A stretch of DNA of 40,615 nt from Deltaproteobacteria bacterium (GCA_029262415.1 JAJCZL010000002.1:1-40615), one strand, 5' to 3'; numbered from the stretch's first letter, positions 3,173 to 17,034 are shown. A program made the numbers and translations. The notes: generated from the letters alone by a model not told the origin.

Positions 3173-5215
3173 CTAGCGCGGCGGCAGCAGTTTACCGCGG
3201 CACGCAGACATGACCGCCGGTAGCACCACGACATTCAAAACCAACGCGAACGCAACACCGATGGTGAGCGTCAGCGCAAACGAGGCCATGCCGCGGTGAC
3301 GGGTAAACGCGAGCGCTGCGAATGCCGCGATAGTCGTCAGCGAGGTCAGCACAACGCTTCGGCCCGAACTCGTTAGCGTCGCCTCCAAATCCCCGCCCAC
3401 GTCTCGGAATCGGTGCACCAGGTGAACGCCGTCATCGACGGCGATCCCGAGAATGACCGGCCATGCCATGATGTTGAGTGGGTTCATCGAGATCCCGAAC
3501 AGGGTCATGGAAGCACGCGTGCAAAACACCGTCATCAGTACCGGCAGCATGACGATGAGCGTTGCGGAGATGCTGCGCGAGCCTAGCAGTACGAACAACA
3601 CCAACAACACAGACCCCGCAAGCGCCGCGATACGCAACGACTCCTTCGACAACTCGCTCATGAACAGCCCGAGGAACGGCATCCCTGTAACGGTCGGGTC
3701 CAACGCGCGCATACGCGTGACGAACTCTCGCTGCGCCGCCTCCTCCCAAACGTCGCTACTCGGGTAGGCATAGACGGCGTAGCGCCCGGCGGGACTCTTG
3801 AATCGCGACAACAACGCCGGTGACACAGGGTCGGCCCCCGCGAGCGAGGCGGCGACGGCGTCGCTTAGCGAACGGACCGCCGCGACACCTTCGCTTGCAC
3901 GCAGACGCTGCGTCAACTCACGCACAGCCTCTGGTGAATCCACGTTGAACGCTGCGAACACCGGCGAGAATTGCGAGCGGCGGACCATCTCGCGCTCGAG
4001 CCGGACGGCTTCGGAACCTGCGGCCTGCAGATTGAGGTAGTCGGAGTCAAAACCCGGGGCGGGTACCGCGGCCGCAGCCAACGCCGCCGCGCCGCAAAGC
4101 GCGGCAAAGCGGCCTCGGCTGAGCGCCATCAAAACACCACCGATGCGTCCGCCTGCGGCATGTCCGGCACGGCGCAACGGGGGTCTATGCAAGACCAGAA
4201 GCGCAGGCAAGACCGTCACCATCGACGCAAGGCAGACGATAACCCCGACCCCGGCAATGGTGCCGAGCTCGGCGAACCCACGGAAACCCGTCAGGTTCAT
4301 CGCGAGAAAGACCGAAGCAGTGGTCAATGCTCCGGTTTGCAGCGCGGGCGCCTGCGACGAGACTGCCTCGACAACCGCTTTGCGCGGCTCTAGGCCGCAA
4401 GCAGAGAGCTGCTCGAATCGATCGACGATGTGAAGCCCAAAATCGATGCCGATACCAAACAGAATCGAGGCGAAGAAGGCCGAAAGCAGCGTCAGATGGC
4501 CCGGCTGGATCGCCGCGATACCGAGCGTCACTGCGACCCCCACTAGGAGCGCGGCCATCGCCAGCAACGGCCGGGCGAATGATCGAAAACTCACGGCAAA
4601 CAAACCGAGAACGGCAATGAGCGAGATCGCCGACAGCTTCGAGATGTCTTGTTGTATGACGTCGCGGTCGTCGAGCGCGTAACGTGGTAACCCGGTCAGG
4701 CCCGCGCGTACGCCACCGGCCTGCAAGTCCGCCCCATCGATTACCGCTTGCACGCCGCGGACGAACGGCTCGATCGTCGTCGCGCTGGAGTGCGGGTCGT
4801 CAGGTTGTACAAAGATGAAAGCCATTCCCCCGTCATCGGAGGTCAGATAGTCGTCGCCGTCGCTGAGAAGTCCACCCTTGGCCGGATCGCGGCTGATGAC
4901 CGACAACACCCCCGGCGCAGCACCCAGCCGCGAGGCGACCACATCGACGGAACCTTTGAGCTTCGCCTGATCGTCGGACTCAAGGACTACGACAAGCGTA
5001 TTCGGCGTGCCAAACTCAGCCGCAAAACCCGTGAAGAGCCGAACCTCGGGGAGATCGGGCGAGATGAGATCGAGGTTTGAGGTTCGGATACCCAGATGAG
5101 TTGCAGCGAACGCAAGTGAGGCAATGCTCAGCAACGCCGCGAACACCAGGGTCCGCCACGGACGCTCGGTAGAGGTTCGCGCTGCACGCGTGAGCAAGAA
5201 CCCCCGCGTACTCAT
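3173..5215 (-). CDS. MMPL/RND-family transporter (HpnN-like)
   Basis: A 680-residue inner-membrane protein with the duplicated RND layout: one N-terminal TM helix, a large periplasmic loop (about 45-185), a bundle of five or six TM helices, a second loop and a final bundle. Each half carries the MMPL helix-4 motif with acidic residues (FGIGIDFGLHIVDRF and LGIAVDDGVHLVHRF) that typically forms the proton relay. Related proteins move lipids, hopanoids or hydrophobic compounds. It is the last gene of the operon starting at 10586, and its ATG overlaps the stop of the MFS-cytochrome fusion by 4 nt, indicating translational coupling. No adaptor or outer-membrane partner lies adjacent. The substrate is unknown; lipid or isoprenoid export would fit the upstream genes. 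Confidence 0.85.
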   Translation of the reverse strand: MSTRGFLLTRAARTSTERPWRTLVFAALLSIASLAFAATHLGIRTSNLDLISPDLPEVRLFTGFAAEFGTPNTLVVVLESDDQAKLKGSVDVVASRLGAAPGVLSVISRDPAKGGLLSDGDDYLTSDDGGMAFIFVQPDDPHSSATTIEPFVRGVQAVIDGADLQAGGVRAGLTGLPRYALDDRDVIQQDISKLSAISLIAVLGLFAVSFRSFARPLLAMAALLVGVAVTLGIAAIQPGHLTLLSAFFASILFGIGIDFGLHIVDRFEQLSACGLEPRKAVVEAVSSQAPALQTGALTTASVFLAMNLTGFRGFAELGTIAGVGVIVCLASMVTVLPALLVLHRPPLRRAGHAAGGRIGGVLMALSRGRFAALCGAAALAAAAVPAPGFDSDYLNLQAAGSEAVRLEREMVRRSQFSPVFAAFNVDSPEAVRELTQRLRASEGVAAVRSLSDAVAASLAGADPVSPALLSRFKSPAGRYAVYAYPSSDVWEEAAQREFVTRMRALDPTVTGMPFLGLFMSELSKESLRIAALAGSVLLVLFVLLGSRSISATLIVMLPVLMTVFCTRASMTLFGISMNPLNIMAWPVILGIAVDDGVHLVHRFRDVGGDLEATLTSSGRSVVLTSLTTIAAFAALAFTRHRGMASFALTLTIGVAFALVLNVVVLPAVMSACRGKLLPPR

Positions 5216-7209
5216 CGGGCGTCCCTGGACCGTAAGAACCGTAAGTACGCCACAATGTCGGAAACCTGCTGATCGCTCAGCGTTTCATGGCCCGACATCG
5301 AGGTGTTGGCTACCCCAAATCTGACTACCCGAGCCAGCGCATCGTCGAGCGGTTCGGCACCCTCGCCCCAAGAGACCAAAACGAACTCGGGTTTCTGCAA
5401 ATCCATCGCAGTGTCTTTAGTGGCGGCTTTGAGTGTGCCTTTGAGTGTGCCGGCCAGCGGACCGTCGCCGCGTCCAGTTGGTCCGTGACAGGCCGCACAA
5501 TTGGCATCGAACAGGGGTTTTCCGCGTTGTACCGATGCTGAATGCCGCGGCCGCTGGATCGTCGCACGTTGCGTCGCCGCGTAGCGTTCCTCAGCCGTAT
5601 CGCGACCGAGCCAGGACAGGTAAGCAACCAGATCGGCACCGCGCACGTCTTCGAACAGATGCGCATAGGCAGGCATGCGCGACGCCGGGTTGAGCGCGCG
5701 TGGATCCTTCAGGTGGATCTCCTGCCAGACTGCGCTGCGACGGTTGCCGACGCGGGCCAGATCCGGCCCCTGCCTACGGTTGCCGGGCATCGGCGGCCGA
5801 TCTTCACGCGAGAAACCTCCGGGAGGTCCCCAGGCCGCGACGTCCGCGCTGTCGGCGCGTACGTATTGAGAGTGGCAGTTGATGCACCCCTCGGCGATAT
5901 AGACCATTCGACCTTCAGAAACGGCGCTATGCTCAGTTTTGGCGGTCGGTTCGACCGCCGATTGTGGCGCTCGATCGGCACCGTGTGCAACCTGAAGAAG
6001 CAACGCCGCGACGAAGAACAACAGCGGCATACCGTATACGCGCCGAACCGCGTAGGAAGTACGCCGGTCGGCAAACGCCCATCCAAGTGCGAGCACCAGC
6101 CCAGCCGCGACGACGAAGGAGGCGGGGATACGGTGAAGCTCTTGCGCCATGCCGACCCCAAGTGCCGAACCCAACCAACCCGCGATACCGTAGAGCAGCG
6201 CAGCCCGCCACCGGATCGGAACGAGCCCTTCGCGTTCGGCCGCAAGCGACGGAAAGACAACCAAGGCAGTCGAATAGAGTGAGATCCCGAACGCGTACAG
6301 CGGCCCTGCGATTCGCGCGGTCTCTTGCCAGTGCGCAAGCGTGCTGAACGCGAGCACAAACAAGCCGAACGCCGCGAGCAGCAGCCCACGAAAACGCCCG
6401 CGATCCAATAGCAAGCCGGCGACCAGAGCGCCGGCCAGGTGGGAGCCCCCCTGCGTCAGCTGTTGCGCGTCGCTTCCCCAAGTGGCGCCCTTGAGGCCGA
6501 TGGTTTCTTGGATAACTGCGAAAGCGGCCGAGTCGAGCCAGATTAACGCTAGAAACGACGCAACAACCGTCGCGAACCCAAGCCGAGTGTAGTCAACGTA
6601 ACCGTTGCGCGCCGCGTGCTTATCGGCGGCCGCCGCGGTGTCCGCACTTGGGTGCGGAGGCGCCGCCGTTGTCGCCGATACCCACACGAACGCGGCAATG
6701 CAGAGCGTGGCCGGAAACCAACAGCGCAAGGTCACACTCCCCGCAAACAAAAACGGGATGTTGCACACCAAGTAAGCGAGTCCGGTGCCGAGTCCCGCGC
6801 CCAGCCCGAGCCTTGATACCGGCAACATCGAGCGGAGGCTCGCCGCAACAGAGACCGTAAGGAGACCGGTAAAGCAGCCGACACCGGCGGATACCAGCAC
6901 CGACGGCACCAACCCGGTGCACCAGGGAGCAACGAACGCCACCACCGCGCAGCCGAGCAAGGCAACGCGCACAAGCAGATCCGCCGAGGTTCTGCCGAGC
7001 AACCAAGCGGTCGCCAGACTCATAGCCAGGCCCGAGAGCCCCATCGCCGTCATCGACGAACGCACCAGTGAAGGATCAACGAGTGTAGATTGGAGTAGAT
7101 CGAGGAAGCCGAACTGTGCGAACAGAAGAAAGTAGACGTAAGTAGTCGAGACAACGACTATGCCTTGGCGCAGCCCGCTGACTGTTCCGCGTTCGCCGTC
7201 TTCAGTCAC
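5212..7209 (-). CDS. MFS-like membrane domain fused to CcoO-like and CcoP-like cytochrome c domains
   Basis: A 665-residue fusion. Residues about 10-405 are roughly 12 TM helices in an MFS-like pattern, with a hydrophilic central loop near 180-205. After the last helix, residues 430-540 carry GRMVYIAEGCINCHSQYVR (heme motif 442-446), GPDLARVGNRRS and MPAYAHL (M512 likely axial ligand). This is the characteristic monoheme signature of cbb3 oxidase subunit CcoO/FixO. Residues 560-665 form a second class I cytochrome c domain (CAACH 571-575, likely M638 ligand), like the CcoP C-terminal domain. GTG at 7209 was chosen because GGGAGG precedes it; it overlaps the upstream gene by 8 nt. Both heme domains would face the periplasm. 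The fusion is unusual; a role in electron transfer to or from the adjacent oxidase-like subunit is inferred. Confidence 0.88.
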   Translation of the reverse strand: MTEDGERGTVSGLRQGIVVVSTTYVYFLLFAQFGFLDLLQSTLVDPSLVRSSMTAMGLSGLAMSLATAWLLGRTSADLLVRVALLGCAVVAFVAPWCTGLVPSVLVSAGVGCFTGLLTVSVAASLRSMLPVSRLGLGAGLGTGLAYLVCNIPFLFAGSVTLRCWFPATLCIAAFVWVSATTAAPPHPSADTAAAADKHAARNGYVDYTRLGFATVVASFLALIWLDSAAFAVIQETIGLKGATWGSDAQQLTQGGSHLAGALVAGLLLDRGRFRGLLLAAFGLFVLAFSTLAHWQETARIAGPLYAFGISLYSTALVVFPSLAAEREGLVPIRWRAALLYGIAGWLGSALGVGMAQELHRIPASFVVAAGLVLALGWAFADRRTSYAVRRVYGMPLLFFVAALLLQVAHGADRAPQSAVEPTAKTEHSAVSEGRMVYIAEGCINCHSQYVRADSADVAAWGPPGGFSREDRPPMPGNRRQGPDLARVGNRRSAVWQEIHLKDPRALNPASRMPAYAHLFEDVRGADLVAYLSWLGRDTAEERYAATQRATIQRPRHSASVQRGKPLFDANCAACHGPTGRGDGPLAGTLKGTLKAATKDTAMDLQKPEFVLVSWGEGAEPLDDALARVVRFGVANTSMSGHETLSDQQVSDIVAYLRFLRSRDAR

Positions 7210-7624
7210 TTGCGCCTCCCGAGAGTTCCTTGAGCATCCAAACTTGAACGGCAGCGAAGGATGCATCGGTGAAACAGACAACCATCCATGCCGGCTCCAA
7301 CCCGCCGCGCGAAACCTCGAAGGCTACGAACCCCGCGACCGCGGCACGCACTACCCCAGTTATGAAAAGCACGCTCATTACCAACTCGCGCCGCGGCGAC
7401 CAACGTGCGACCGCAGGCAGCCAGTAGGTGAGACCCACAGTGAAGACGAAGACTCCGATGTAGCGCAGGTAGACCGGCTCTTTGGGCAGCGTCTCGATGG
7501 ACATCAAGCGCAGGGTGAACTCGGGAGCGGCAAGCAACAGGAGACCCGTACAAGCATCCGCAAACCCTGCAAGCCAACAGTATATCGCGATCCCCATCGG
7601 GATCTCAGAGTAACAGCGGTTCAT
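7202..7624 (-). CDS. Small membrane protein of the oxidase-like operon, function unknown
   Basis: A 140-residue hydrophobic protein with about four TM helices (roughly 10-32, 50-70, 80-103 and 110-132). I do not recognise the family; it vaguely resembles small DoxX/DUF4345-type four-helix proteins. Its ATG overlaps the stop of the oxidase subunit I homologue by 4 nt, and its end overlaps the start of the MFS-cytochrome fusion by 8 nt. It sits where a cbb3 operon would carry its small subunit genes, so an accessory or assembly role in the same complex is a reasonable inference. It has no heme motif; cysteines occur at C5, C17, C26 and C117. Confidence 0.75.
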   Translation of the reverse strand: MNRCYSEIPMGIAIYCWLAGFADACTGLLLLAAPEFTLRLMSIETLPKEPVYLRYIGVFVFTVGLTYWLPAVARWSPRRELVMSVLFITGVVRAAVAGFVAFEVSRGGLEPAWMVVCFTDASFAAVQVWMLKELSGGASD

Positions 7625-8958
7625 GCCTGAGCCTCGCTCGGCAAAGGCGTGCCCGTACTACGCCATGCCGCGACCAACCAACAAAGCGACGCAACCGTCA
7701 TCGCAGCGCCGCTAACCAGTCGGACAAAGTACCCAACGGAAACCATAGCCGAGCGTCGAAATAGAACTCCTGGATCGAAACCTTCGATCGTGCCGACAAG
7801 AAGAAGCGTCGTTGCCAGCACGACCATCCCTCCGTGCCAAAGCCAGAACGGTGCCGGAGCCGAAAATACGGCACGGAAACGCGACCTACGGTGGAGACAT
7901 TGTAGAACCACCACGTTGAACGACGTAACCAGTCCGGCCATCGCGATATGCGCATGGGCGACCAACGCGTTGGTGAATTTCCACCTGTCGAGAACCCCGG
8001 GCAGAAAGCCGATGATTCCAGTCGCCAACAATGCCGTTCCCCAAAACGCGAAGGCCACCAACCAAGAGCGGGTCGTCCGCGGCCACGAGAAGTTGCGCAG
8101 ATGCACCGTTAGCAACGGCAGCCAGACTGCGAGGCTTGCTAGAGCGATGATATGAGCGACTTGATGATTGGAGACATCGCCGTGATCAAGCGCGCCAAAC
8201 CACGCAAAATGCAATACCAGAACCCCCACGACCAAACGCGTAGTGCGGCCTTCATCGTGCGCTTTCAAACCGAGCAGTATCGGCGTGAGCACGGCAATTG
8301 TAACGATGCCGAGTGAACTGCCGAGCAAACTCGCTCCCGTCGCACCACTGCTACGCGGATTAACCGACGGATACACCGAGTCGCCGGCGGCCCAAACGAG
8401 AACAAACGGTACCGATGCCAACAGCGCCAGCAACAGCCAACCGGCCGCAACCGCAGCGCTCGACCACGAGTGCGTCAATAGTGACGCACGGCGCGACCGG
8501 CGCACGGCGAGCGCGGCAAGAACACCCGCCAACACCACTAAGTTCGCAAACATGAGCACCCGCGACACGCCGCCCCATTCGAGAAACAGCTTGCCGCTCG
8601 AGCCACCGGCGAGCCATTCGACAGCGGCAAACACCAGCGTTCCGGACCACACGCCCAGAGCGATATGACCAAGAGGTCCGGCGTCACCACCCGGTGCGTA
8701 CCAGGCAAGTAACAACCCCACCAGTGGCAGACTCGTCCACCCATACAGGTGCAGACTCGTATGCAGAGGCACCCAACGCCCATAGGTAAGCGGGACGAAG
8801 GGCGAACCGAGGTCGGGCCAAACCAGCAGCGCCGCCAACAAGACGCCGACGAGATTGGCGGCAACCAGCCAGGTAAGACTGTGGATGGCGGCAGACTCCG
8901 ACACAGTCATCGACTGCGGCTGCAGCGGCAACGCCCTGGTAGGCATGGAAGGCGACAA
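7621..8958 (-). CDS. Heme-copper oxidase subunit I homologue (CcoN/NorB-like) lacking canonical CuB ligands
   Basis: A 445-residue polytopic protein with about 12 TM helices. The likely low-spin heme ligand motif LHTSLHLYGW (H66/H70) matches helix II of CcoN/NorB, and AHAHIAMAGL (H335, H337) matches the helix X HxH that binds both hemes. The protein contains neither an HH dipeptide nor an HxxxY motif anywhere, so the standard CuB site is absent. The helix VI equivalent (GASLLGSSLGIV, about 208-220) has no His, and the helix VII equivalent reads HFAWFGALDHGD, with DH259 where HH is expected. The start is TTG with AAGGG 7 nt upstream, 12 nt after the prenyl synthase stop; ATG at 8946 is an alternative. 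Family membership is reasonably certain. Oxygen or NO reduction is doubtful, and electron transfer only is possible. Confidence 0.82.
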   Translation of the reverse strand: MSPSMPTRALPLQPQSMTVSESAAIHSLTWLVAANLVGVLLAALLVWPDLGSPFVPLTYGRWVPLHTSLHLYGWTSLPLVGLLLAWYAPGGDAGPLGHIALGVWSGTLVFAAVEWLAGGSSGKLFLEWGGVSRVLMFANLVVLAGVLAALAVRRSRRASLLTHSWSSAAVAAGWLLLALLASVPFVLVWAAGDSVYPSVNPRSSGATGASLLGSSLGIVTIAVLTPILLGLKAHDEGRTTRLVVGVLVLHFAWFGALDHGDVSNHQVAHIIALASLAVWLPLLTVHLRNFSWPRTTRSWLVAFAFWGTALLATGIIGFLPGVLDRWKFTNALVAHAHIAMAGLVTSFNVVVLQCLHRRSRFRAVFSAPAPFWLWHGGMVVLATTLLLVGTIEGFDPGVLFRRSAMVSVGYFVRLVSGAAMTVASLCWLVAAWRSTGTPLPSEAQA

Positions 8959-8970
8959 GACCGCGCCCTT

Positions 8971-9945
8971 CTAGCTGCCGAATCGTCGCTGGAGTAGAGC
9001 TTTGACAGTATCGCGTTTCGCCACGAGTACGCACTGGAACTCATCCAAGCACGCCCAGCGTACATCGCGACTCTGTAGGGTCGCGACCACCTCTTCAGCC
9101 TCGAGCAACAAGATCGAAAGCCGCGTCATCGCATGGCCGTGGCCGGTGCCTTGCGGCAGATTGGGCCGGCCCAGAGCGAGGTCTACCCGCGTATCCTTGC
9201 CGGTCTCGGCCATGGTCATGACTTCGTCTTTAAAGTCGTCGAGAATCTGGTAGGAAAGCCCCCACAGGGTCGCAAGCTCGTCAAGTCCGTCCAACACCGC
9301 TCGGTCCGCGCCGCCGTCTAAAGCCGGAAGGAGGAGCGGCAAACGGATGAGAGGCACGGTTTTCGCCGCGGCGATCTTTAACACTGCGCCTTCTCCTCCT
9401 TGCCGCTGTGCAAAGCGTAAGTCGAGAGCCTGACCGCCGACCACACCGGCTGCACCTAGACACGCAGAGACAGTTTGCGCGGCGACCGCTACGTTGGCGC
9501 GCGGAAGCCCGGCGATATAGCGCCAGATCAAGGTGTAGGCTTGGTTGATGAAAGCGAGAGATCCAAGAATCGTCGAGGCTTCTCCGTAAATAAGGTGAGC
9601 GCAGGTGCGTCCGCGCCGCTCACTCGCATCGTCCATACTCGGTAAATCGTCGAGAAGAAGAGACGCGGTGTGAAAGTACTCGATCGCGATGGCCATCTCG
9701 CCGCCGCGCTCGCTCGCGATTCCCATATACGCCGCGATTCTGAAAGCCAGCATCGCACGTGCGAGACTGCCGGGGTTCTCCAAAGTGCTCTGCACCACCC
9801 CTCGCAAGGAAGACTCGGTGTCCTGCGGCATCGCAAGGAGCGTTCGATACCTTTCGGCCAAATAAGCTCGATCATCGAATGCCGCGGCCGGATACTCCGA
9901 GCCGAGGCCGGCGCGGGTCGAGAGCGAGGCCAGCGCGGCGCTCAC
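8971..9945 (-). CDS. Polyprenyl diphosphate synthase (GGPP/FPP synthase-like)
   Basis: A 324-residue all-helical prenyltransferase that condenses isopentenyl diphosphate with an allylic diphosphate. The first aspartate-rich motif is DDLPSMDD, followed by the conserved RRGR arginines; the second is YQILDDFKD. Both bind magnesium-diphosphate. The four residues between DD and D in the first motif are typical of bacterial short-chain (type II FPP/GGPP) enzymes, so product length is uncertain. GTG at 9945 is chosen because it overlaps the YceI stop (GTGA) and gives the normal family length; the open frame extends to 10056. In this operon, with a MenA-like enzyme encoded divergently, supply of a quinone side chain or another isoprenoid is likely. 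Confidence 0.88.
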   Translation of the reverse strand: MSAALASLSTRAGLGSEYPAAAFDDRAYLAERYRTLLAMPQDTESSLRGVVQSTLENPGSLARAMLAFRIAAYMGIASERGGEMAIAIEYFHTASLLLDDLPSMDDASERRGRTCAHLIYGEASTILGSLAFINQAYTLIWRYIAGLPRANVAVAAQTVSACLGAAGVVGGQALDLRFAQRQGGEGAVLKIAAAKTVPLIRLPLLLPALDGGADRAVLDGLDELATLWGLSYQILDDFKDEVMTMAETGKDTRVDLALGRPNLPQGTGHGHAMTRLSILLLEAEEVVATLQSRDVRWACLDEFQCVLVAKRDTVKALLQRRFGS

Positions 9946-10586
9946 GACCCCATCGCCTCGGAGGGAATCGGCGCAACGGTTCCCGTTACTTCGATCTGCA
10001 CCGACACGGTGTCGGATACTTTTAGAAACCAGATACTCGGGTCGTGCATACCCCACGCAAGAAAGGGGATATCCAGCGTGGACGAAGCTCCGAGCCCGGC
10101 TCCTTTCAGGCTGACGACGGTGGGCAGTACAACAGGATGGTCGGCGCCGTGGATCGAGATGACGCCGTGGAGCTGCACATGACTGGTCGCGTCGGCGAGT
10201 ATCTCGCCCTCTACGCGCCGTGGCTCGAATACGATCAGCGGATACTTCTCGCTCTCGAGGACCTCACGGTGCATCGCCTTGTCGCGGCTCCCGTTGCCGG
10301 TGCCAACCTTGTCGGCTTCTACAACGATACGACCCGAGGCCAGACCGGTGACGGGATCGATGCGCATCGATCCCTCGCTGACCAGGGCGGTGCCGTGCAC
10401 CGTATGACCGGTTGCCTTTAGGGAAAATGTGATCGCCGTCCGCACCGAATCGATCTCGAGCGTATACTCGGCGTCGGCGGCAGCGGCGTGCGAAGCCAGG
10501 CCTAAACCCCAAATCGCACCCACCGTTGCCACGATCAGTGCACGGCTCAGCCACACCCCGTTTGCTCGTCTGTAAGCTTTAAACAT
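9942..10586 (-). CDS. YceI-family periplasmic polyisoprenoid-binding-type protein
   Basis: A 214-residue secreted lipocalin-like protein. The N-terminus is a signal peptide ending near SHAAA-AD. The mature domain shows the YceI pattern: YTLEIDSVRTAITFSLKATGHTVHGTA, SRDKAMHREVLESEKYPLIVF, and DPSIWFLKVSDTVSVQIEVTG. Family members bind long-chain isoprenoids or quinone-like molecules in a beta-barrel pocket. ATG at 10586 is preferred over a GTG 15 nt upstream because AGGTGAGG (10596-10603) is well placed for it. It is the first gene of the operon and overlaps the polyprenyl synthase start by 3 nt, which supports a role in carrying an isoprenoid made by the pathway. The ligand itself is inferred. 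Confidence 0.87.
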   Translation of the reverse strand: MFKAYRRANGVWLSRALIVATVGAIWGLGLASHAAAADAEYTLEIDSVRTAITFSLKATGHTVHGTALVSEGSMRIDPVTGLASGRIVVEADKVGTGNGSRDKAMHREVLESEKYPLIVFEPRRVEGEILADATSHVQLHGVISIHGADHPVVLPTVVSLKGAGLGASSTLDIPFLAWGMHDPSIWFLKVSDTVSVQIEVTGTVAPIPSEAMGS

Positions 10587-10595
10587 ATTTGGTTT

Positions 10596-10603
10596 CCTCA
10601 CCT
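10596..10603 (-). promoter_or_regulatory. Shine-Dalgarno site deciding the YceI start
   Basis: Read on the minus strand this is AGGTGAGG, 9 nt before ATG at 10586. The longer open frame starts with the GTG inside this site, so the ribosome-binding site supports the shorter protein. Confidence 0.6.
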
Positions 10604-10806
10604 GTTCGTTTCCGGTTCATCGGTAGTATTTGCAAGAAACGGACCGGAGAGAATGGCGCGGGCCTCAGGCGAAAACACCGCACGCAGCACCTGCGTGCGG
10701 GTGTGGCCTGCAGATAGTTGCAGTGCGAGTGCAAAGTCTAGCGGTCCTTGGTTCACCAGAACAATTGAAGACAGCAGAGGTCTCGACTACACAGAGCTTA
10801 TACCTT
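10604..10806. other. Divergent intergenic region between YceI and MenA-like genes
   Basis: About 200 bp separate the two divergent units and should hold both promoters. The MenA frame is open through most of it (from 10630), but the translated N-terminus there is Cys/Pro-rich and unlike the family. I saw no convincing paired -35/-10 boxes or strong inverted repeat. Confidence 0.4.
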
Positions 10807-11679
10807 GTGAGCATCCCGTTCCATACATGGCTGGCAGCGGCGCGGCCGCGCACCCTATCGGCATCGATTGTCCCGGTTGCCTTGGGAGTCTCATTGGCGA
10901 TCCGCAGTGGAGTATTTCGGCCGTGGGTTGCAGCGATGACTTTGACTATGGCGCTGCTGATCCAGATCGGTACCAACTTGGCCAACGACTACTACGACTT
11001 CGTCCGCGGAGCCGACGGGGACGACCGCCTCGGCCCCGAACGTGCAACCCAATCGGGCGTGATCCCAGCAACGACGGTTCGCAACGCCGCGTTCATGGTC
11101 CTGGCAGCAGCGGCGCTGTGCAGCGCGAGCCTGGTCGCAATCGGCGGAATACCAATCCTCGTCATCGGCATAGCCTCGATCGTCTCCGCCCTCGCGTACA
11201 CCGCCGGGCCTTATCCACTCGCCTACCACGGCTTCGGCGACCTGTTCGTGTTCGTCTTCTTCGGACCTGTGGCGGTTTGCGGGACTTATTACCTGCAAAC
11301 GGCGAACTTCCACGCCGGCGTGGCCGCCGCGTCACTGCCTGTCGCGGCGCTGGCCGCCGCTATCATGGCGGTCAACAATCTGCGCGACATCGCGACCGAC
11401 TCGCGTGCGGGAAAGAACACCCTCGCAGTCCGCATCGGTGACAGGGCAACGCGAGCGCAATACGTCGTGCTCGTGGTATTTGCGTTTGTTGTGCAGTCGA
11501 TGCTGGCGATACGTTTCGGCGTAAGGTTCGCCGTTCCGCTGCTGGTGCTGCCCTTGGCTGCCTTTGAAACCGCGTTGCTGTTACGGCGCGAAGGAGCCGC
11601 ACTCAACTCGAGCCTGGGCGGAACCGCCCGCCTTCTCCTGGTCTTCGGTATCGCTGCGGTAGGAGGCCTCATTTATTGA
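10807..11679 (+). CDS. menA: 1,4-dihydroxy-2-naphthoate polyprenyltransferase-like (MenA, UbiA superfamily)
   Basis: An integral-membrane prenyltransferase of about 290 residues with 8-9 TM helices. It attaches a polyprenyl chain to an aromatic ring, in MenA to 1,4-dihydroxy-2-naphthoate for menaquinone. The opening HTWLAAARPRTLSASIVPV, the first aspartate motif NLANDYYDFVRGADGDDR and the second motif NNLRDIATDSRAGKNTLAVRIG are typical of MenA rather than UbiA. GTG at 10807 gives the usual family length; the frame is open back to 10630, so the start is uncertain. The end overlaps the TTG start of the porin gene by 4 nt. The divergent polyprenyl synthase could supply its isoprenoid substrate. 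Other quinone prenylations are possible. Confidence 0.83.
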   Translation: MSIPFHTWLAAARPRTLSASIVPVALGVSLAIRSGVFRPWVAAMTLTMALLIQIGTNLANDYYDFVRGADGDDRLGPERATQSGVIPATTVRNAAFMVLAAAALCSASLVAIGGIPILVIGIASIVSALAYTAGPYPLAYHGFGDLFVFVFFGPVAVCGTYYLQTANFHAGVAAASLPVAALAAAIMAVNNLRDIATDSRAGKNTLAVRIGDRATRAQYVVLVVFAFVVQSMLAIRFGVRFAVPLLVLPLAAFETALLLRREGAALNSSLGGTARLLLVFGIAAVGGLIY

Positions 11680-16278: not shown

Positions 16279-17034
16279 TCAGCCCGCACCGATCCGGCTA
16301 TGGCTCCAGTTGTCCACGCCGGTACATATGCAGCCAAATGTATTACAGAACTCCCAGTCGATGTCGCCCCCGAATGCATTCCCGGAAGGGTTAACATCCA
16401 GTATTCCCGTAAAGAACGTAGTGCCTCCATCTTCGAACTGGTTGTACGAAATAGAAACGGTGCAACCGATGCGCCTGATCATCAGCTGGTTGAACGGAAG
16501 TTGCGGCGACACCACCGTGATCGTGCCGTCGGCGGATTCCGACAGAGTGATCGACAGGTTAGTGGGCGGACCGAGGCCGTCGCCGCAGTTCTCACTGACC
16601 TCGGTAACGGTCAGGAACCAGGTCCCAGTGATATCGATACCGGGGCATGCAGGCATCGTCGTAGTCGTGCTCGTAGTCGTAGTCGTGGCAGTGGTAGTGG
16701 TAGTGGTAGTGGTAGTGGTAGTGGTAGTGGTCGGTACGCCACACGAAACGCAATCGAGGGTCACCGGCTGGCCGACACCGAATTGGAGGATCCGTAGACC
16801 GTCTGTCGCGGCAACGCCGCCCGACCTGTCGACATCGCAGACACACAAGGCGCAGGTGGTCGAACCGACCGCCGCGCGTAGCGCGATCGAAGCGTCAGTT
16901 GCGGTACGGTTGCTGTCGTCGTTCGCGTCTCCGCACAGGGTCTGTGCGTGTGCACACTGCCCGCTAACGGCAAATAGCACAGCCAGTGCAGACGAATAGT
17001 AGATTGATGCACGCTTCGACTGGGCGGTTTGCAT
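16279..17034 (-). CDS. Secreted dockerin-like repeat protein with poly-threonine linker
   Basis: A 251-residue exported protein. The signal peptide ends near CAHAQ. Two dockerin-like EF-hand segments follow (CGDANDDSNRTATDASIALRAAVG and CDVDRSGGVAATDGLRILQFGVG), each with Ca-binding-type Asp/Asn positions and flanked by Cys pairs. A Thr-rich linker of about 30 residues comes next, with an uninterrupted run of 14 Thr. The C-terminal domain of about 120 residues (ITGTWFLTVTEVSENCG, six Cys) is beta-rich and resembles lipocalin-like or secreted repeat domains. GGAGG precedes the ATG. Such Cys-flanked dockerin-like repeats with TTT linkers are common in surface proteins of some uncultured deltaproteobacterial lineages. 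The function is unknown; extracellular attachment or display is likely. Confidence 0.8.
   Translation of the reverse strand: MQTAQSKRASIYYSSALAVLFAVSGQCAHAQTLCGDANDDSNRTATDASIALRAAVGSTTCALCVCDVDRSGGVAATDGLRILQFGVGQPVTLDCVSCGVPTTTTTTTTTTTTTTATTTTTSTTTTMPACPGIDITGTWFLTVTEVSENCGDGLGPPTNLSITLSESADGTITVVSPQLPFNQLMIRRIGCTVSISYNQFEDGGTTFFTGILDVNPSGNAFGGDIDWEFCNTFGCICTGVDNWSHSRIGAG
16656..16731. repeat. Tandem hexanucleotide repeat encoding the poly-Thr linker
   Basis: The plus strand shows GTGGTA repeated with no error from 16691 to 16730 (about 6.7 copies), preceded by imperfect GTAGTC-like units from 16656. On the coding (minus) strand it encodes alternating ACC/ACT threonine codons. Such a tract is prone to slippage, and gains or losses of whole units stay in frame. 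Confidence 0.85.

Follow-up and report, generated by a model that had tools for sequence, protein, structure and literature searches.

The window, a stretch of 40,615 nucleotides analysed at its full length, comes from one contig of a Deltaproteobacteria bacterium (GCA_029262415.1 JAJCZL010000002.1:1-40615), whose draft genome consists of 83 contigs and is 96.8% complete. Six minus-strand genes form a tight operon. In order, they encode a YceI-family lipocalin with an apparent signal peptide (9942..10601; Pfam YceI, 9.1e-20), a polyprenyl diphosphate synthase (8971..9945; Pfam, 5.6e-31), a 445-residue homologue of oxidase subunit I with 12 predicted transmembrane (TM) helices that matches COX1 and CcoN profiles (7621..8958), a 140-residue protein with four TM helices by hydropathy and no assigned family (7202..7624), a fusion of an MFS-like domain with CcoO-type and c-type cytochrome domains (Pfam; 689 residues as listed, 5212..7281), and an HpnN-like MMPL/RND transporter of 680 residues (3173..5215; MMPL, 9.8e-40). 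Four of the five junctions are overlaps of 4-8 nt and the fifth is a gap. The lipocalin and synthase genes share 4 nt, given the GTG at 9945 that start context indicates as the likely synthase start; a gap of 12 nt separates the synthase from subunit I; the 4-TM gene starts over the subunit I stop (4 nt); the 4-TM gene and the fusion overlap by 8 nt if the latter begins at its likelier start, a GTG at 7209 with GGGAGG upstream; and the fusion and transporter genes share 4 nt. All six frames are uninterrupted, and their codon use resembles that of neighbouring genes. The coordinates and reading frames that an earlier note on this DNA gave for subunit I, the 140-residue protein and the fusion are correct. 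Divergent from the operon is menA (10630..11679, plus strand), which encodes the DHNA polyprenyltransferase (NF004751, 317 bits; cut-off 264) and lies 28 bases from the lipocalin gene by the listed starts.

Elsewhere in the window, an open-ended fragment of a multiheme cytochrome with several CxxCH motifs occupies the contig edge (1-378) and is followed by a TPR/outer-membrane-like protein (400-2553). A protein with a dockerin-like region and a long threonine repeat is encoded at 16279-17034 and has a weak match in locus L120.

Judged by profile comparison, subunit I is a genuine but extremely divergent C-family (CcoN) homologue, because its CcoN scores lie well beyond those of shuffled sequences and of other heme-copper oxidase (HCO) families. 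COX1 is its sole Pfam match (4.7e-7) and, at 29.5 bits, falls under the cut-off of 34.8. A CcoN HMM built from 19 proteins of other genomes and plasmids scores subunit I at 52 bits, and none of 120 shuffles, half of which preserve the hydrophobic pattern, exceeds 4 bits. By hhalign, subunit I scores 84 when compared with all the CcoN proteins pooled; with the nearest CcoN group it scores 49, where shuffles reach no more than 10 and neighbouring membrane proteins 3-4. The CcoN groups far exceed the NOR, A-type and B-type profiles and the HH-less COX1 proteins. Profile comparison with the HCO families bears out the cbb3 affinity supposed in the earlier note. An identity as NorB was rejected on the lack of HxxxE and HH and on NOR profiles that score at noise level. 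Searching solved structures with the single sequence returned no match. AlphaFold2 run without an alignment gave mean confidences too low for fold searches, from which the models were kept out (pLDDT 47.6 for subunit I and 44.9 for the MFS part). In the tree, the branch that leads to subunit I measures 4.8 changes per site, against 0.78 for the next longest end branch, and is too long for its position to be fixed.

The heme ligands of CcoN are retained in subunit I. CcoN residues are cited here (His60, His207, Tyr251, His257/258, His345, His347) in what we take to be the numbering of the Pseudomonas stutzeri structure. At maximum hmmalign posterior and across the alignments, H66 (8761..8763, minus strand) corresponds to the helix-II heme b ligand His60, and H335-A-H337 (7948..7956, minus strand) to His345 (heme b3) and His347 (heme b). 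Both low-spin heme b ligands, H66 and H337, and the heme b3 ligand, H335, are therefore kept. The earlier note had read H66/H70 and HAH 335-337 as heme-type motifs; of these, H66, H335 and H337 are indeed the CcoN heme ligands, and H70 is extra.

The remaining histidines do not restore the CcoN copper site. They stand at positions 26, 98, 163, 234, 250, 259, 265, 269, 286, 356 and 375, and since none lies between 163 and 234, the helix-VI CuB ligand is gone in every register. HH, HxxxY and HxxxE are absent throughout the 445 residues. The earlier note had deduced a missing copper site from the absence of HH and HxxxY; both are indeed absent, but the HxxxY argument is uninformative for the C-family because the canonical CcoN proteins compared also lack H[PNA]xxY. 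What is informative is the loss of the helix-VI histidine, of HH and, in the alignments, of the helix-VII tyrosine. Tyr251 and HH257/258 of CcoN are replaced by residues 250-269, HFAWFGALDHGDVSNHQVAH (8152..8211, minus strand), in an uncertain register: three aligners give three registers for this segment, placing the HH position at N264/H265 (MAFFT), Q266/V267 (hhalign) or A256/L257 (hmmalign), and the tyrosine position falls on Asp258, Gly260 or His250 depending on the register. The alignments leave one CuB histidine at most that could remain.

The same segment, ALDHGDVSNHQVAH, supplies D258, H259, D261, H265 and H269 as potential ligands, from which a metal site might possibly be rebuilt. 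Subunit I could accordingly still belong to a reductase of O2, NO or another gas, with H259, H265, H269 and D258/D261 binding Cu, Fe or Zn. These five residues lie in the very segment that matches the CcoN tyrosine and HH, H265 falls on the second histidine of HH in one of the three registers, and the heme b3 ligand is retained. We nevertheless regard a gas reductase as unlikely: the helix-VI ligand is categorically missing, HH is recovered in no register, and Asp, Gly or His takes the place of the tyrosine.

The N-terminal domain of the fusion is probably MFS-like (residues ~25-405; 6067..7209, minus strand). Its MFS_1 match is below the cut-off (E=0.46), yet it covers profile positions 6-346 of 347, and hydropathy and a low-confidence model suggest six plus six helices on either side of a loop at ~205-230. 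A motif-A-like GLLLDRGRFR is also present. A thirteenth TM helix predicted from hydropathy (residues 410-436; 5974..6054, minus strand) would put the cytochrome domains in the periplasm. The first of these is a CcoO-type monoheme domain (5641..5919, minus strand) with CINCH at 466-470 and the axial Met536 in SRMPAY. It matches FixO at residues 455-546 (5.3e-26) and aligns with CcoO of the solved cbb3 structures 8smr and 9g6b; the match omits profile positions 1-50, which hold the usual N-terminal anchor. The second c-type heme domain (5239..5535, minus strand; Cytochrome_CBB3 at residues 583-680, 3.3e-13) resembles the C-terminal part of CcoP and has a single CxxCH, CAACH at 595-599, compared with two in diheme CcoP. 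Both domains retain CxxCH and the axial methionine. In the earlier note's description of the protein as a 12-TM MFS::CcoO::CcoP fusion, the CcoO part is clear, whereas the MFS part is weak by sequence and the CcoP part single-heme. The CcoO domain is 42-48% identical to CcoO proteins, and the CcoO::CcoP stretch 30-34%. Set against the branch of 4.8 for subunit I, this identity of the CcoO domain indicates that the side through which electrons enter has been kept, and that it is the catalytic subunit that has been rewritten.

An association of an MFS-type protein with a cbb3-related protein recalls the CcoA/CalT copper importers, which carry MxxxM in TM7 and HxxxM in TM8 and provide copper to cbb3 oxidases (PMC6362234). 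The earlier note had implied such a tie, and the operon could on this account encode a copper or heme assembly factor for an ordinary cbb3 oxidase, such as the CcoN/CcoO pair of the same genome. However, that pair sits on a different contig, c-type heme domains fused to an importer would be unexpected, and the Met and His positions of the MFS part yield neither MxxxM nor HxxxM. A CcoA-type importer was rejected on these missing motifs, and the tie to CcoA is not supported; we give an assembly factor very little credence.

The CcoO::CcoP arrangement is itself known in kind. In the phylum (loci L089-L097) and on plasmids, a CcoN gene precedes a CcoO::CcoP two-heme fusion that has no MFS part, and loci of this kind include L010 of Paraburkholderia and L011 of Komagataeibacter. 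As in these loci, the operon has a subunit I gene followed by a fused c-type cytochrome, with the same heme ligands. Unlike in them, subunit I lacks the CuB histidines, HH and tyrosine, the CcoO part is attached to an MFS-like domain where theirs has a single anchor, a 4-TM gene intervenes between subunit I and the fusion, and the genes belong to an isoprenoid operon. In L089-L097, the CcoN-like genes and the two-heme fusion adjoin genes for multiheme cytochromes and NrfD-like proteins, which presumably resemble alternative complex III.

HH-less homologues of another sort also occur in the phylum. Loci L063 (1534-3009 and 3233-4738), L062 (3707-5062), L085 and L086 encode HH-less COX1 homologues, one of which in L063 directly adjoins an HH-bearing paralogue, a pair that might possibly form a heterodimer. 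They share with subunit I the COX1 family and an HxH motif, but profile scores do not relate them to it specifically, and no MFS or CcoO partner was noticed in a non-systematic look at the loci that were read. Additionally, COX1-family mini-proteins of 133-149 residues with a single HxH...LLGW motif and no HH are encoded at L061:2465-2863, L062:2569-2979 and L063:6395-6841. Proteins of 411-441 residues (L059:786-2072, L064:3-1247, L060:2968-4290) apparently contain two or three HxH...LLGW modules serially and likewise no HH. Lacking HH, the mini-proteins and the multi-module proteins of L059-L064, whose modules have four TM helices, look like CuB-less heme b modules.

The other operon genes point to isoprenoid metabolism and lipid traffic. 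The synthase has both Asp-rich motifs, DDLPSMDD and DDFKD, and its catalytic motifs are intact. The MMPL protein scores 348.9 bits against HpnN (cut-off 751.85). Hopanoid export was rejected because the genome has no match to squalene-hopene cyclase. The 4-TM protein matches only ETR1_N in Pfam, below threshold (0.0023), and Pfam searches detected no b561 family in subunit I or the other operon proteins. The best matches of the synthase reach just 30-37% identity, and 38 relatives offer nothing below 1e-60 for the MMPL protein; by these comparisons, the operon seems either to come from outside the class or to evolve very rapidly. In contrast, menA is 58% identical to its counterpart in a genome of the same family and is vertically inherited in the lineage. 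No operon genes were found near menA in relatives, and an orthologous operon at that site was rejected. Since menA is an ordinary vertical gene and the operon does not accompany it in relatives, their adjacency may be chance, and membership of menA in the operon is not implied.

No second instance of this gene set was found. Searches of 143-148 genomes of the class and 395 of the phylum returned no relative for subunit I, none for the MFS domain and no second fusion, and the gene order, for which the earlier note had hoped to find other genomes, has no further case in the same sets. FixO is matched in 62 of the 395 phylum genomes. Of the other unusually long FixO frames, those read in sequence (G222 and G504) proved to be frame run-ons and were rejected as MFS fusions, and none showed an MFS part. 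A peptide-pattern search for relatives in genome and viral collections found none, and no CcoN alignment was obtained from viral contigs. Plasmid proteins match the fusion through its cytochromes only and show no match to subunit I, the MFS part or YceI. A CuB-less, cbb3-derived core beside an MFS-like::CcoO::CcoP fusion is a kind of system for which we found no description in the open-licence literature, in line with the earlier note, which knew of no complex of such composition.

Such isolation could suggest an artefact of assembly or a contaminant contig, particularly in a draft genome of 83 contigs whose operon proteins lack close relatives in the class. We consider this highly improbable. 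The fusion is one continuous open frame, codon-position G+C is unbroken over the junction, and the window contains no N, all of which speaks against the assembly chimera that the earlier note had raised as a possibility. The vertically inherited menA lies 28 bases from the lipocalin gene, and the contamination estimate of the genome is just 0.62%. Another explanation is a decaying or neutralised cbb3 locus, in which subunit I would be functionless and the fusion a by-product of rearrangement. The very long branch of subunit I and the absence of relatives from the genomes searched would fit decay. However, all six frames are intact and overlap or nearly so, with codon use like that of their neighbours; the heme ligands are retained exactly amid change in other parts; and the cytochrome domains keep CxxCH and the axial methionine. 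Decay is thus quite unlikely.

At somewhat less than even confidence, we prefer to read subunit I, the 4-TM protein and the fusion as components of a cbb3-derived electron-transfer complex that no longer reduces O2 and has a quinone or lipid of the isoprenoid type as its partner. Passage of electrons to or from such a molecule fits the conservation of the CcoO domain and the heme ligands and the loss of the parts needed for O2 chemistry. Oxidase function is covered elsewhere in the genome, where genes for an aa3 subunit I and for a CcoN/CcoO pair that retains HH lie outside the operon. The earlier note had proposed an electron-transfer, quinol-oxidising or transport complex, which is reasonable and is favoured by the isoprenoid operon, a feature absent from that note. 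In the manner of cbb3 oxidases, two b hemes in subunit I would exchange electrons with the pair of c hemes that the fusion would hold in the periplasm, and the second b heme, without a CuB set, would serve as a further relay or as a substrate site. The partner would most likely be an isoprenoid, either a quinone or some other lipid; no quinone site was recognised. The polyprenyl diphosphate synthase would make the isoprenoid tail, the YceI lipocalin, from a family of isoprenoid and ubiquinone carriers, would carry the lipid, and the MFS part and the MMPL/RND protein, as two membrane transporters, would move it.

A precedent for the electron-transfer reading exists in the BcnA/LcoA system. Ligands of YceI lipocalins include octaprenyl compounds and ubiquinone-8, and the family is tied to cytochrome b561, whose presumed role is to reduce the carried quinone and thereby counter lipid peroxidation (PMC9113575). 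Here, too, a YceI lipocalin is linked to a membrane cytochrome b, and handling of an isoprenoid quinone is likely. Unlike BcnA/LcoA, the cytochrome of the operon is CcoN-like with c hemes rather than b561, and transporters and a prenyl synthase are added. In the proposed complex, a cbb3-like core may thus do what b561 does alongside YceI. A bolder version, which we hold to be quite improbable, is a redox-coupled lipid transporter, in which electron flow between the quinone, the CuB-less core and the c hemes would gate or drive isoprenoid export through the MFS part, with onward passage to YceI and the RND protein.

The binuclear centre is taken as the defining feature of heme-copper oxidases. 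If the proposed electron-transfer role is true, the HCO scaffold would be re-usable purely for electron transfer, and respiratory cytochromes would be linked to isoprenoid lipid traffic through an operon that is directly testable.
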